Shown here in pieces: positions 43,489-51,265 of a stretch of 64,000 nt of DNA (the stretch's first letter is position 1; each line of letters starts with the position of its first letter). The stretch spans positions 1,736,001 to 1,800,000 of the forward strand of contig JAGPYM010000006.1 in the NCBI GenBank assembly GCA_020736575.1, written 5' to 3'. Source of the stretch: Thelonectria olida (taxonomy: Eukaryota; Ascomycota; Sordariomycetes; Hypocreales; Nectriaceae). The notes beneath the pieces were generated by a model. That model did not search any database and was not told the origin of the DNA. It worked only from the letters and a program-made list of their open reading frames with translations. The translations under genes and the position numbers were made by a program.

Positions 43489-44502
43489 ATGGCGGAAGAA
43501 GAATCTTGCAACGGCGAGGCCGTCGACGCTGGCCGACGTGGCCTTCGAATTGCCTCCATCTTCATCATCATGGCCGCTTCACTCATTGGCGCCGTTGGTC
43601 CGATCATCCTTGCCCGACAAAGCAAGGTCCCTGTCCCCAAGTTTCTCTTCTTCATTTGCAAGTTCGTCGGTACCGGCGTCATTATTGCCACGGCCTTTAT
43701 GCACTTGCTGGTCCCTGCCATCGAAAACTTGGGAGACGAGTGTCTTGCGGACCGACTAGGCGAATACGACTGGGCCGAGTGCATCGCCCTCATGACCGTC
43801 ATCGTCATGTTCTTCGTCGAGATGCTAGCGATGAGGTTGGCCAATGAAGATGAGGAACACAGCCACGACAAGGACTTCGACCTCGACCCTGCTATGGACA
43901 TTGTTGCGGCCAAGTCTCGAGGCTCAGGAGCCTCTGACGTCGAGCGTGACGGCAACGGCCTTGCCCCGGGCGGAGAGGAGCACCTTGCTCATCGACGCGA
44001 GCATAAGGAGAACGACTCTGGAATTGGAAGCCAGCTCCTTGCTATTTTCGTTCTTGAATTTGGTGTCGTGTTCCACAGCATCTTCATCGGTCTCACCCTT
44101 GGTACGACCGACGACCTTACCGTCCTCCTCATCGTTCTCGTGTTCCACCAGCTGTTTGAGGGTCTGGGTCTGGGCTCTCGATTGGCCGTTGCCCCTTGGC
44201 CCAGTAACAGAAAGTGGGTGCCCTACGTCCTCGGCGTCATCTTTGCTCTTTCAACGCCCATTGGCGTGGCTGCTGGCATAGGAGCCAAGCCCAACAACGC
44301 CAACACGCAGAAGCTTGTCAATGGTATCTTTGACGCCATCAGTGCTGGTATTCTGATGTACACTGGTCTCGTAGAGCTCCTCGCCCACGAGTTCATGTTC
44401 AACCCCTACATGCGTCGGGCGCCTCTGAAGACGCTATTGTTGGCCTTTGCCTGCGTAGCATTCGGTGTGACGGTGATGGCAGTCATTGCTAAGTGGGCTT
44501 AG
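43489..44502 (+). CDS. ZIP-family zinc transporter (Zrt1/Zrt2-like)
   Basis: A single exon of 337 aa. Eight hydrophobic segments fit the ZIP topology: RIASIFIIMAASLIGAVGPI, FLFFICKFVGTGVIIATAFMHLL, ALMTVIVMFFVEMLAMRLA, then four to five more at the C-terminus. The short His/acidic variable loop EDEEHSHDKDFD lies between TM3 and TM4. The metal-binding helices are HSIFIGLTLG (TM4) and HQLFEGLGLGSRLA (TM5), whose His and Glu residues form the binuclear metal site. The role is zinc uptake across the plasma membrane. A motif cluster upstream suggests control by a Zap1/ZafA-type factor. Zrt1 versus Zrt2 cannot be separated by eye. Confidence 0.93.
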   Translation: MAEEESCNGEAVDAGRRGLRIASIFIIMAASLIGAVGPIILARQSKVPVPKFLFFICKFVGTGVIIATAFMHLLVPAIENLGDECLADRLGEYDWAECIALMTVIVMFFVEMLAMRLANEDEEHSHDKDFDLDPAMDIVAAKSRGSGASDVERDGNGLAPGGEEHLAHRREHKENDSGIGSQLLAIFVLEFGVVFHSIFIGLTLGTTDDLTVLLIVLVFHQLFEGLGLGSRLAVAPWPSNRKWVPYVLGVIFALSTPIGVAAGIGAKPNNANTQKLVNGIFDAISAGILMYTGLVELLAHEFMFNPYMRRAPLKTLLLAFACVAFGVTVMAVIAKWA

Positions 44503-45276: not shown

Positions 45277-46073
45277 ATGGCCGGCGGAATTACCGTTCGC
45301 GATGTCGATGTAGGTGCTCCCTGAAGAAACAGACCGAGAAGGACACAAACCCGAACCTTTCGAAGCCCTCGACGACTTGGCAACACAATCTTCCAACAAT
45401 AAATCCACGTCCGCAACGAAGGCGCTCGCTGCATCGCAAGCGCGTTGGGGAGTCAAACTGACACGCTATGCGATTCGGCCCGCCGACGGAGCGAACAGTG
45501 AGAAATAAAATGGGATTTTGAGGAGCAGGCGCGAGGGAGTCGAAAGACTTCTGACGACGGAATCATTGCTAATGGGTTTTGTGTTGCCAGGCGCAAAAGT
45601 TCATCATCGCCTATGCTGCGTTCTTGAAGCGTCAGGGCAAGCTGCCCATCCCTGGTACGTTCCCGCTGACAATTGCTCTCTGAATGAAGAGTCTCGATCG
45701 CTAACACTCCGTAGGTTGGGTTGACACCATCAAGACCGGTCCCGCCAAGGAGCTCCCTCCTCAGGACATTGACTGGTTCTACGTCCGCGCCGCCTCCATC
45801 GCCCGCCACGTCTACCTCCGCAAGACCGTCGGTGTTGGCCGTCTCCGCAAGGTCCACGGTACCGCCAAGAACCGCGGCAACGCTCCCTCCCACCACGTCG
45901 ACGCCTCTGGCTCCGTTGACCGCAAGGTCATGCAGGCCCTTGAGAAGATCGGTGTCCTCGAGCAGGATGAGGACAAGGGTGGCCGCCGCATCACCCAGGC
46001 CGGCCAGCGTGATTTGGACCGAATTGCCCAGACCACTGCTGAGGCCGAGGAGGAGGAGGAGGATGACGAGTAA
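45277..46073 (+). CDS. rps19: 40S ribosomal protein S19
   Basis: Three exons: 45277-45309, 45591-45654 and 45715-46073. Introns are 281 bp (GTAGGT...TTGCCAG) and 60 bp (GTACGT...CCGTAG); 151 aa. The sequence MAGGITVRDVD, AQKFIIAYAAFLKRQGKLPIP, WVDTIKTGPAKELPPQDIDW and YVRAASIARHVYLRK is unmistakable S19e. It belongs to the head of the small ribosomal subunit and is needed for 18S rRNA maturation. The tail (AEEEEEDDE) is more acidic than in animals. A tiny first exon and a long first intron are typical of fungal ribosomal protein genes. Confidence 0.96.
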
Positions 46074-46987: not shown

Positions 46988-48517
46988 ATGTCAAATACTC
47001 AGGGAGAAAACTGTCGTATCCCGACTTTCATTACATCTAATGAAGTCGCCTCCCCATTCTTTTACTTTCGACATATCGTTGATCCCGACGACGCCACCCT
47101 GAAAGTCCAGGCCATCGGACCAGACCTTGAATTCACCTTCACACACTCCCGGGCCAAGGCTATGTTCTCTCGCTCGAAAATCAAGTTCCAGCTCGAGCAG
47201 AAAACAGCAGGCTTCGTCGCCCTCGTCACCAACACTGGCCACCGCGTTGTCCTCTCCGCAGCCGAGAGCGGCCACGGCGCAGGCAGACTCGGAGATGTGC
47301 TCGATGCGCCGCCAGGCGTGTTGGCCAATGCTCTCTGGACGAGACGCGCCGTTGCCGTTGGGAAACTACTCGGTATCAACATGAGACGGCCGTTTGACAA
47401 CCCTCACGGCTTCATCGCAGGGGCGGATGGCATCTTCCAAGGGTCGCATGTCGAGGTTAAGCTCGCGGTGCACGGCATCTTTCTCCTCCTAAACACGTTC
47501 AACATCACGAGGAATTTCGACAATGTGAGGCTGGGACACTTGAAAAGGCTGAAGAACGCGCTCTGGGAAGATGGTACGAGGCCGTCGTTGGAGGTGTACT
47601 TCTCCCGGAAGAACTGCGCGTGCTGCGGACAGCTCGTCAGGGCTCTTGCGGGAGTGACTGGCATTTCGATACGGCTGCTTTGGAAACATCGACTCGAACT
47701 AAAAGAGTATGCATCGAAGCCGCTTGGAGCTGCCGACGGTTCTGGAAGGGCTAGGGGTGGACAAGAGGCAGAAGTGTTGGTTGAGGGCCAGGACATGGAC
47801 TTTGGCGATGGTCTATCCCGGGATTTCGACTCGGATAATGAGGCCCTGGATGGGGAGGACTCAGATGATGATGTACAGGCTCTCGACTTGGTCGATCTCG
47901 TTTCCAATGCTCCCATCTCCATCAGCCCGGGGCCGCAAGAAGTCATCTCGGTCAGCCCCGCGGCAGAAGAAGGACAGGGGCCAGAGCCACACCCCGCAGA
48001 CGACTATCTAGACGGCCTGGCCTATCGGGTTGGCCAACTCGAGTCGTCCCCCGAAGGCGCCGCCGAAGCCGTCGTACAGTTCGCGACAAAGATGGTCGGC
48101 ACCAACAAGATCAGCTGGCTGCCCTCAAACTCGCCGCCCGGCCTCGACACTCCCAATATCAACAACCCCAGCTCCAGCGCCGCCTCCACCGTCGCCAAGC
48201 CCTTGCCCGCAACTCCTAAGACGGAGCCGCCGGAGTGGATGTTGGGAGGAGGAAAGGCCAAGAAGCCCTCCCGTCTGCGTCGCGAAGACAGCGAGAGTGA
48301 GGACGACGACTGGGAGTTTCCTGAGAGGAGGAAGGGGATGAGCTCGCCGTGCGAGCGGGCCTTGAAGCGTGAGAGCAAGGTGCGTGACCGGTCGCCGCGG
48401 AGGTATTCGGCGCGGCCTTTGGAGCGAACCGTGGTGAAGAGGACGATATCGCGGATCTGTGTCGAGATTCCGGTGAAGCGAAGATCGACAAGCTCTGAAG
48501 TTTCTTACGTGATGTGA
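46988..48517 (+). CDS. Unnamed protein with a cytidine-deaminase-like zinc signature
   Basis: A single exon of 509 aa; 46988 is the first in-frame ATG (AAAAATG). Residues about 75-93 form a predicted beta-hairpin (FVALVTNTGHRVVLSAA). A helix beginning HVEVKLAVHGIFLLL supplies His154-x-Glu156. A strand LEVYFS leads to Cys210-Ala-Cys-Cys213 at the start of the helix GQLVRALAGVTG, then the strand ISIRLLWKH. Strand, CxxC-helix and strand after an HxE helix is the arrangement of the zinc-dependent deaminase fold (CDA, APOBEC and OTT_1508-like families). The C-terminal 230 residues are acidic and then basic and low-complexity (KKPSRLRRE, SPRRYSARP), suggesting nuclear localisation. The family assignment is inference; no substrate is proposed. 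It ends 283 bp from the convergent PXB gene. Confidence 0.6.
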   Translation: MSNTQGENCRIPTFITSNEVASPFFYFRHIVDPDDATLKVQAIGPDLEFTFTHSRAKAMFSRSKIKFQLEQKTAGFVALVTNTGHRVVLSAAESGHGAGRLGDVLDAPPGVLANALWTRRAVAVGKLLGINMRRPFDNPHGFIAGADGIFQGSHVEVKLAVHGIFLLLNTFNITRNFDNVRLGHLKRLKNALWEDGTRPSLEVYFSRKNCACCGQLVRALAGVTGISIRLLWKHRLELKEYASKPLGAADGSGRARGGQEAEVLVEGQDMDFGDGLSRDFDSDNEALDGEDSDDDVQALDLVDLVSNAPISISPGPQEVISVSPAAEEGQGPEPHPADDYLDGLAYRVGQLESSPEGAAEAVVQFATKMVGTNKISWLPSNSPPGLDTPNINNPSSSAASTVAKPLPATPKTEPPEWMLGGGKAKKPSRLRREDSESEDDDWEFPERRKGMSSPCERALKRESKVRDRSPRRYSARPLERTVVKRTISRICVEIPVKRRSTSSEVSYVM

Positions 48518-48800: not shown

Positions 48801-51265
48801 CTATTGCTGTTCGACTTCCTGGAGCAGCTTCCGGAATCCGTCTCCCAGTTCATGGACCACAATGTCAACGTTGGGGGCCTCGGGGCCCTCATCTGCTGAT
48901 TTGATGGCCGCATCCCTAGCCTTCTGAGCATCAGCAACACTCTTGCCAATGGCGACGTTTTCCTTGACGTCCTTTCCGCATCGTAGAGGGCCCTTAGGCA
49001 CGCCTGGCGTAATCGGCGTGCAGTTCAAGAGACTCTGCCATTTCGAGAGGTACATTCCCGGACCATTCATGCTGGCGGGACTCGCGCTTGAGGTGCAGCT
49101 CGAGCTCGTGCTAGAGCTGGAGCTTGACCCCGGCCGAGACCCGGAGCTGGGGTTTGACTTGGCTTTAGATCTCGAGCCGGAGCTAGACCTCGAATTTGAC
49201 TTGCAGCCAGAGCTGGAGCTGGAATCGGAGTCGCAGGTGGAAGAGTCGACGATTCGTTGGAGGCGGACTTGGGAGAGGGCGGAAAGGGAAGACAGATATG
49301 ACGAGTGGGCGTTGAGCGCGGTGAGGATGGGCTGTCGTGAGGGCTCTGGGAGAGCTTGAAAGAGTCCGTTTAGGCGGTCTTCCATGATACTCACGTCGGC
49401 TTCTTCCTTGCCAACCTCGGTATCGACCTTGGCATCATTATCTGCACCTGATGTTTTCGCATCTGCTTCCTTGGGCGCCCCTGGATATTTTCGCTCTTGG
49501 TGGAATTCAAGCATGGCATCCTTGCACCACCTTCTCATCTCTTCCCAGACATCTGGACATGATTTCGCGACGGAGTGAATCAAGTTGTACAGAAACATGC
49601 GGTTCCTCGTGAGCAGGTCGACATAATCTTCGACGCTGGGCATCTTCTCTGGTTTTTTCGACTCGCCATTCCTCATCCACCGCCATCCTGACGTCGCTCC
49701 CGTATCAGTCTCATCCTTCTTCGGTTTACCGGTTTTGATAAAGTCGTCAATAAACTTCTCATATGCCTCGAAATGCTCTTGCCGATTTAGGTTGGAGTGC
49801 AACGAGCGCATGATTGGCTCGGAGGCTGTGAAGACATCCTTAACCGTTGCGGTGAAGAGATCGGGTGGTTGACGGCATAGTGTGGCGGTGATGCGCTCGC
49901 GGTCGCGGATGGAGAGGAGGGCAGAGTAGTACTCCAGACACTGGGTATGTTTTTCCTCGGCTAGGTTGGCATTGAGGTCTGGATTAGAAGCGTTGAATAT
50001 AGCAGTGATGATGGATTGAGCATGCTCGGCGCTGGCAGCTCGCACCGTCTCGTGTTCGTCACGACCTTGAGCAATGTGATCCCGGATGGCCTGCAACATT
50101 TCGTCGGTGGGTCGATCTTTTGCCCTTTCAATCTTGTCGGCACCTTTGCGGAACTCGCCGGAATCCCAAGAAAGCACCATGCTGATGATCCTCTGGAGTA
50201 GGTTCATGCCGTCGTCAGCGTTGGCCGTTAAGCCGACCCAGTTTGTGATGCTGGTGACGCTCATCTTGGCTAGGAGCAAACGCATCATGGCACTAATCAT
50301 GACGGTAGCGTTGCCGAGTCTAAGCGTCTGCTTGATCATCTTGTAAGGCACGAGGTTGTGGATGTTTTCAAGGAGCTTGAGGAGGTATTGTCCTTCGGGA
50401 GAGTGGACAAAGATGTGATGAAGGAATGTCGAGAGGCTGTTTCGTGATTAGCATAAGAGGACAATATAGAGGGGCGGTGAAGATACTGAATGATGGCATA
50501 TTGGGCCGCCGCTTTGATGGCGGGGGAGTATGCCTCGAGGTCATCTGTCTCGCCGAAATAGTCAAACATTTTGTCTACGAGGTCTCCGTAGACGAGGTCC
50601 TCGACAACATCGTCCCAAGCTCTGGTAAGATCTTCGGCTTTGGTGAGGTCGTAGGTGTAACTGGCTTTGGCGTGGTCATCCTTGGTCGTTTGGGGAGATT
50701 TCCGTTTCACGCCACCAAGGGCGCCTCGACCGACCATTTCTATAAGACCGCTTGACCCAGTCGACAACATCTTCCTGGTGCCCATGGCGCCCTTGTCGTA
50801 ACTCTCTGAAAGATCTGCCTCGCCGAATCTGACGAGAAGTCCCTGAATTCTCACTGACCAGAAGTCACGAGGTAGATCTTTCACACCGGGAAGTCCGATG
50901 ACGAATTTGGACAGCAGCATCTGCAAAAGAGGCGACGTCGATGGCCCTGCTTCATCTTCGGCCTGCGTGTCCTCTTCTGGTTCGGGGTTTTTGGACTTTG
51001 CAGCAGATCGGAAGATGGAGACGGGAGTCCTCGCTCGAGGAGTCACGGGTCTTGAGGCAACGGGTGTCACGGGCGTCGACGACCACGTCTTCCACCCCGA
51101 CTGCTGGGGAGGGACGGCGACGGTGATGCGGGCAAAGGGGAAGCCGTAACTAGTGACGGCGTGAGGGGACTTGAAGCCCTCGATCTCTGCGTACGTCTCA
51201 TGATGGGTGAGAATGTCGAAGAGGGCGTGAGTTTGGTCTGGCGTCAGAGCCTCACTGGACGACAT
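48801..51265 (-). CDS. PX-associated domain protein (PXB + DUF3818) without an evident PX domain
   Basis: Two exons on the - strand, 51265-50487 and 50436-48801, with a 50-bp intron (GTATCT...GAAACAG); 804 aa. The N-terminus LTPDQTHALFDILTHHETYAEIEGF is the start of the PXB domain. The region around and after the splice (FLHHIFVHSPEGQYLLKLLENIH, LVPYKMIKQTLRLGNATVMI, MLQAIRDHIAQ) fits DUF3818. Yeast YPR097W and its fungal relatives combine these with a central PX phosphoinositide-binding module and act in lipid and membrane organisation. No PX signature (RR-x-Y, P-x-x-P-x-K) was found here. A Ser-rich low-complexity tract (SSSGSRSKAKSNPSSGSRPG) lies about residues 660-720. It may be a PX-less paralogue. 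Confidence 0.75.

Follow-up and report, generated by a model that had tools for sequence, protein, structure and literature searches.

The 64,000-nucleotide window of Thelonectria olida DNA analysed here (contig JAGPYM010000006.1, positions 1,736,001 to 1,800,000) contains a gene for a protein whose deaminase fold and place in the SsdA clade are well supported, SsdA being a BaDTF2 protein of Pseudomonas syringae (PDB 7JTU and 9C63; Pfam PF24120, SsdA_C). Judged by sequence and predicted model, it most resembles a bacterial toxin that converts C to U in DNA. The explanation that we favour, with modest confidence, is that of a domesticated SsdA-clade cytosine deaminase of the single-stranded DNA (ssDNA) type, nuclear and vertically inherited in Hypocreales. 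The evidence computed consists of the predicted fold, the conservation of four residues, the nearest known relative, the distribution among named hits, a tree and motif statistics. The novelty lies in a vertically inherited fungal form of a known deaminase clade, a kinship at which Pfam and UniRef labels already hinted in part; in a literature search outside which most subscription journals lay, nothing was found on a fungal SsdA-like protein or on this family.

Predicted fold and conservation of the zinc site

The initial annotation had read the gene as encoding a 509-residue protein at 46988..48517, and the frame was confirmed: it opens with the ATG at 46988, runs uninterrupted on the + strand to the stop codon ending at 48517, and upstream of 46988 the in-frame codons run to a stop with no further ATG. 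On the predicted model, DSSP assigns core strands to residues 74-80 and 85-93, a helix to 114-127, the HxE helix to 155-170 and an extra helix to 182-190, followed in the second half of the core by a strand at 200-205, the CxxC helix at 211-224 and strands at 227-232 and 234-236. The structure prediction proposed at that time as a check thus returned, on the predicted model only, a cytidine-deaminase-like core in which both motifs open helices, with H154-V-E156 and C210-A-C-C213 placed as had been described, the latter after a strand and ahead of a helix and another strand.

To the window protein we joined its relatives from three protein searches, giving a family set of 176 proteins (P0001-P0176). 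The first search returned 102 proteins, 48 of which make up alignment A1; the second listed 120 of its 138 proteins, the other 18 entering, if at all, via the third. Alignment A4 holds 129 of the 176, mostly intact gene models, fragmentary and fused models being mostly left out. The four signature residues H154, E156, C210 and C213 are invariant throughout A4, together with G75, S94, G95, N114, L159 and S206. The same holds in A1 for H154 and E156 (48/48 each), while C210 and C213 are found in 47/48, the sole miss being a gap in P0077. Over the whole family, HxExKL occurs in 174/176 proteins and S[RK]xxCxxC in 169/176, several of the misses being short or partial models. Since the pattern HxE(25-90)CxxC also arose in 81 of 20,000 composition shuffles of the window protein, the motif pair by itself is only suggestive, and it is the conservation that decides. 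On these grounds, the earlier interpretation as a zinc deaminase is supported.

Ligation of zinc by His and Cys, with Glu as proton shuttle, is the general chemistry of the deaminase superfamily. In the mechanism that we propose, zinc would be held by His154, Cys210 and Cys213, with Glu156 as the proton shuttle of a hydrolytic deamination converting cytosine to uracil. That the protein is inactive and its deaminase fold serves as a scaffold or adaptor, the functional part then perhaps being the conserved tail motifs described below, appears very unlikely, as invariance of the four catalytic positions in every row of A4 is unusual for a dead enzyme.

Relationship to SsdA and to other deaminases

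At E<=10, PF24120 was the only Pfam family to match the window protein, with an E of 0.15 over residues 92-159. It also matched 26 of the 48 A1 members at E<=1 (best 2.2e-5), far ahead of every other family, and the precomputed Pfam labels of the protein database place PF24120.2 on 13 listed relatives, including P0157. As bacterial counterparts we used four PF24120 domains (a pair from the same phylum sample, one from Streptomyces and one from an Oscillatoria plasmid), all of which pass the cut-off of the family. With hhalign, whose E-values refer to single comparisons, the fungal core aligned to these four domains with an E of 2.1e-6 over 73 columns, superposing the fungal SHVE on the bacterial SHAE and SKxxCxxC on SKxxCxxC; the untrimmed A4 gave an E of 2.9e-5 and a probability of 74%, and the trimmed A4 scored 43.6, where 60 column shuffles reached at most 17.6 and the reversed control 13.1. 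In addition, the VIA-align score of the model was 10.2 with SsdA and lower with the double-stranded DNA deaminase toxins DddB (BaDTF3) and DddA (BaDTF1), at 6.6 and 5.2, respectively, and the PPR-DYW structure 9kfx ranks third in the structural match list. These comparisons show homology to bacterial SsdA-type domains. They also make a zinc deaminase for a small molecule, be it a free base, a nucleoside, a nucleotide or a secondary metabolite, rather improbable, as the nearest structural matches, SsdA, PPR-DYW and DddB, all act on nucleic acid, and an acidic and basic tail with a SUMO-like motif better suits a nuclear protein.

According to passages of PMC7901873, the second strand of BaDTF2 toxins is followed by an SGW motif close to the active site, where DYW proteins have a PG motif; these toxins possess antiparallel strands 4 and 5, are without DYW and CxC, and are tied to interbacterial toxin systems. 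At the corresponding site the fungal family has SGH, S and G being present in 129/129 rows of A4 and the third residue being H in 124/129, N in 4 and G in 1; two of the four bacterial PF24120 domains have SGY in place of SGW, so that W is not universal there either. CxC is present in 11/176 family proteins, including the window protein, where it lies within CACC. The fungal proteins are also about 25 residues longer between HxE and CxxC than the four aligned bacterial domains, with an extra helix there, and differ from SsdA in having a long disordered tail. Unlike the toxins, the fungal gene is vertically inherited, and no PAAR, RHS or HINT carrier or immunity gene was seen with it; as to a link with interbacterial antagonism, Pfam scans revealed no carrier domain, and the neighbours are RPS19 and a PXB/DUF3818 protein. 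A C-terminal hairpin of antiparallel strands 4 and 5 was considered and dropped, as the strands at 227-232 and 234-236 lie one residue apart and may be one strand with a bulge, their directions being unread. Given these differences, we do not file the family as a BaDTF2 member; we regard it as a fungal offshoot of the SsdA clade, either sister or derived.

The DYW deaminases that edit RNA in plant and protist organelles belong to the same broader clade as SsdA (in passages of PMC7901873). Because these relatives act on RNA, the main rival explanation is a C-to-U editor of RNA rather than DNA, comparable to plant DYW proteins, and we regard it as unlikely. None of the 176 family proteins has a C-terminal DYW, and neither PPR nor ankyrin repeats were found in Pfam scans; SsdA, the nearest relative, prefers ssDNA, as stated in the same source, and C-to-U mRNA editing is given in the relevant part of PMC7306014 for basidiomycetes and not as an ascomycete feature. 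Returning to the domesticated deaminase that we favour, its substrate would be a single-stranded nucleic acid, most likely DNA because of this preference of SsdA, and the SGH loop, which borders the active site and stands where SsdA has SGW, would probably set the choice of substrate.

Two further deaminase groups were compared. OTT_1508-like deaminases (PF14441) have the HxE and xxS[KR]xxCxxC half in the same order as the fungal protein; the profile–profile comparison with this family that had been suggested gave no support. Specifically, the window protein has no match to PF14441 at E<=10 with the HMMER filters on, and the hhalign score of 16.9, obtained with 7 of the 13 such places in the T. 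olida genome, lies within the shuffles, 3/60 of which equal it (maximum 25.6). Those 13 places (L131-L143) match PF14441 at E<=0.01, 12 exceeding the cut-off and two containing an internal stop, and form an expanded deaminase family separate from the window deaminase. AID/APOBEC enzymes have the deaminase fold, HxE and CxxC in common with the fungal protein; the helix that they carry between strands 4 and 5, which run parallel in them, is not in the confident part of the model, in which strand directions are unread.

Searches outside fungi yielded no bridging sequence. The A3 profile hit 35 stretches in genome contigs and 20 in viral contigs, none of which was confirmed; P0129 had no match in plasmids and P0177 none in phages, and an NCBIfam scan of four family members was equally without a match. 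PF24120 screens of prokaryote genomes gave a match below the cut-off in 1/8 and hits in 2/193, and nothing in 369 at E<=1e-5 or in 398 at E<=1e-4 (genomes partly overlapping); as 14 control genomes stayed silent in all of them, these screens do not establish absence.

Among bacterial and viral sequences, the Oscillatoria nigro-viridis plasmid encodes a HINT-type polymorphic toxin that ends in an SsdA_C deaminase, and an Imm5 immunity gene comes next (L130, 169-972 and 992-1566). Another bacterial locus (L123) carries an RHS-type open reading frame (ORF) at 627-1490 and then an SsdA_C deaminase cassette at 1453-1836 in another frame, and viral contig IMGVR_UViG_3300044658_000142 (L144, 3001-3369) encodes a relative of the bacterial SsdA-type domain with 41% identity.

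That the fungal protein is a retained toxin, directed at other microbes or at the cell itself in a heteroincompatibility-like death and not engaged in editing, we consider improbable. Bacterial relatives do lie in polymorphic toxins, namely the HINT proteins of Streptomyces and of Oscillatoria, with Imm5 after the Oscillatoria one, and passages of PMC3482391 propose a possible part in conflict or defence for deaminases that fungi have acquired. The window protein, however, shows no hydrophobic leader or membrane stretch in a crude hydrophobicity profile and no toxin carrier domain by Pfam; no immunity gene was seen among its neighbours (RPS19 upstream, PXB/DUF3818 downstream), and the gene is vertically inherited as one copy in the genome.

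The tail and the weighing of the proposed function

The acidic-then-basic tail pointed out in the initial annotation is evident from the residue counts, with 24 D/E and 4 K/R in residues 240-335 and 28 K/R and 18 D/E in residues 372-509. After the core, [VI]DL[TS] occurs in 117/162 tails, compared to a mean of 2.6 and a maximum of 7 in 200 shuffles. The LDLVDLVS of the window protein fits only a looser pattern, present in 125/162 tails (shuffles: mean 9.4, maximum 19). Tandem [VI]DLT motifs, three in the Clonostachys rows (P0117, P0118, P0119 and P0125) and four in P0079, resemble in sequence tandem SUMO-interacting motifs. KPLPATP, which we take to fit the class I SH3-ligand pattern, is a further conserved motif. 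Within the parts of these papers that concern us, (I/V)DLT is named as a SUMO-interacting core (PMC4907222), and acidic residues flanking such a core are stressed (PMC3901395). The tail hints that the family may work in the nucleus. In the proposed mechanism, the disordered tail, with its acidic tract, SUMO-interacting-like motif, KPLPATP and basic RSPR end, would target the enzyme to places in the nucleus rich in SUMO, presumably by binding SUMO, and would also regulate it.

Several points weigh against this explanation. As regards the kinship, the window protein scores 13.1 bits against the curated PF24120 cut-off of 27 and so misses it, and none of 10 relatives scanned passes (best 25.4). 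Foldseek with the predicted model returned nothing at E<=0.001, the top matches being DddB (0.029 and 0.039), and SsdA is absent among the 50 matches listed; no SsdA chain turned up when the PDB was searched by sequence with the A3 and A2 profiles. The third residue of SGW is changed to give SGH. As regards the tail, the window protein reads VDLV and not [VI]DL[TS], its near relatives P0003-P0006 fit neither pattern (P0003 and P0005 read VDLI), the motif is missing in 8/8 rows of the Cordycipitaceae group in the tree, and the shuffle statistics given above ignore the relatedness of the sequences. Lastly, deaminase activity in any member of the family is something we infer, and the substrate cannot be read from kinship, because the DYW relatives edit RNA.

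Distribution, descent and meaning

All named organisms among the matches listed in the three protein searches are Hypocreales, many rows being without a name; eleven genera were checked in the NCBI taxonomy, and Fusarium, Trichoderma, Metarhizium and the remaining genera are placed in the order on our own assumption. The tree, built from 86 named rows, recovers each of Nectriaceae (27), Hypocreaceae (24), Clavicipitaceae (12), the Cordycipitaceae group (8, counting Aphanocladium, unplaced at NCBI) and Clonostachys (4) as a supported single group; Ophiocordycipitaceae (6) need two changes and Stachybotryaceae (2) are weakly joined. Trichothecium, Emericellopsis and Amphichorda group together at 81/87; NCBI assigns the latter two to Bionectriaceae, and the tree does not unite either with Clonostachys. 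The window protein joins Ilyonectria and Neonectria, and its own genome has one match to the gene.

The evidence on gene order comes from this window and one fused gene model. In the latter, P0012 of Fusarium austroafricanum, ribosomal protein S19 (95% identity over 108 amino acids) and the deaminase stand in one protein in the same order as here; we read it as probably a mis-joined pair of neighbours, and therefore as shared gene order. Taken together, the named matches confined to Hypocreales, the tree, the single copy and the shared gene order are the reasons for which the sequences suggest one acquisition in or before the ancestor of Hypocreales, followed by vertical descent. The domain would have been a bacterial one of the SsdA (DYW-like) clade, domesticated in that ancestor; the direction of transfer, from bacteria to fungi, is the probable one.

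The features of the gene and its upstream neighbour are collected in the table. On the downstream side, 48801-51265 (-) reads as a PXB/DUF3818 (PX-associated) protein in two ORFs, split probably by an intron. A ZIP zinc transporter lies two genes upstream at 43489-44502 (+) (PF02535, E 6e-65), which we regard as a coincidence.

Coordinates of the deaminase-like gene, its predicted features and the upstream neighbour within the window
Feature	Position	Strand	Basis
SsdA-clade deaminase-like gene	46988..48517	+	Uninterrupted ORF, 509 aa; orthologues align from the N-terminus onward
N-terminal strands and two short helices, residues 13-70	47024..47197	+	Predicted model; mostly within the structural alignment to SsdA
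Deaminase core, residues 74-236	47207..47695	+	Predicted model; VIA-align to SsdA
SGHG, residues 94-97, directly after the second core strand	47267..47278	+	Position of SGW in BaDTF2 toxins
H154-V-E156, predicted zinc ligand and catalytic glutamate	47447..47455	+	129/129 rows of A4
C210-A-C-C213, predicted zinc ligands, inside conserved S-[RK]-x-x-C-x-x-C	47615..47626	+	C210, C213 and S206 each 129/129 (A4)
Acidic tract (residues 281-295), then LDLVDLVS (299-306)	47828..47905	+	Position of the SUMO-interacting-like [VI]DL[TS] of orthologues
Predicted helix pair with conserved DGLAYxVGQ, residues 336-371	47993..48100	+	Model; motif in 125/176 proteins
KPLPATP, residues 404-410, conserved linear motif	48197..48217	+	KPLPxT in 134/176 proteins
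Basic tail with RDRSPRRY	48365..48406	+	RSPRx[YH] in 52/176 proteins
Ribosomal protein S19 (RPS19) exon, upstream neighbour	45705..46070	+	PF01090, E 1.3e-44

The distribution also bears on repeat-induced point mutation (RIP), for which the protein might be taken as the missing cytosine deaminase. The idea is tempting, as it would place a nuclear C-to-T mutator among fungi that have RIP, a process used in Fusarium graminearum (part of PMC11087585) and classical in Neurospora, of the Sordariales (part of PMC11156358). We give it hardly any credence: Neurospora has RIP, yet no named relative outside Hypocreales is among the matches listed. A passage of PMC11156358 further reports that 16 deaminase-domain genes of F. 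graminearum were deleted singly with no defect in A-to-I editing.

A bolder form of the explanation that we favour, which we put forward tentatively, is an independently arisen fungal analogue of AID/APOBEC, in which a bacterial ssDNA-deaminase toxin domain, domesticated once in Hypocreales, would be recruited through a SUMO-interacting motif as a nuclear C-to-U mutator of ssDNA or in genome defence, for example at mobile elements or stalled forks.

If the enzyme is active, one order of fungi would have kept through its radiation a eukaryotic gene that derives from a bacterial toxin mutating DNA, or is sister to it. Such a gene would allow one to test directly how host enzymes arise from toxin deaminases, as has been proposed for AID/APOBEC; it would also supply a new base-editing scaffold and be a candidate for generating programmed mutation or providing defence in fungi such as Fusarium, Trichoderma and Metarhizium.
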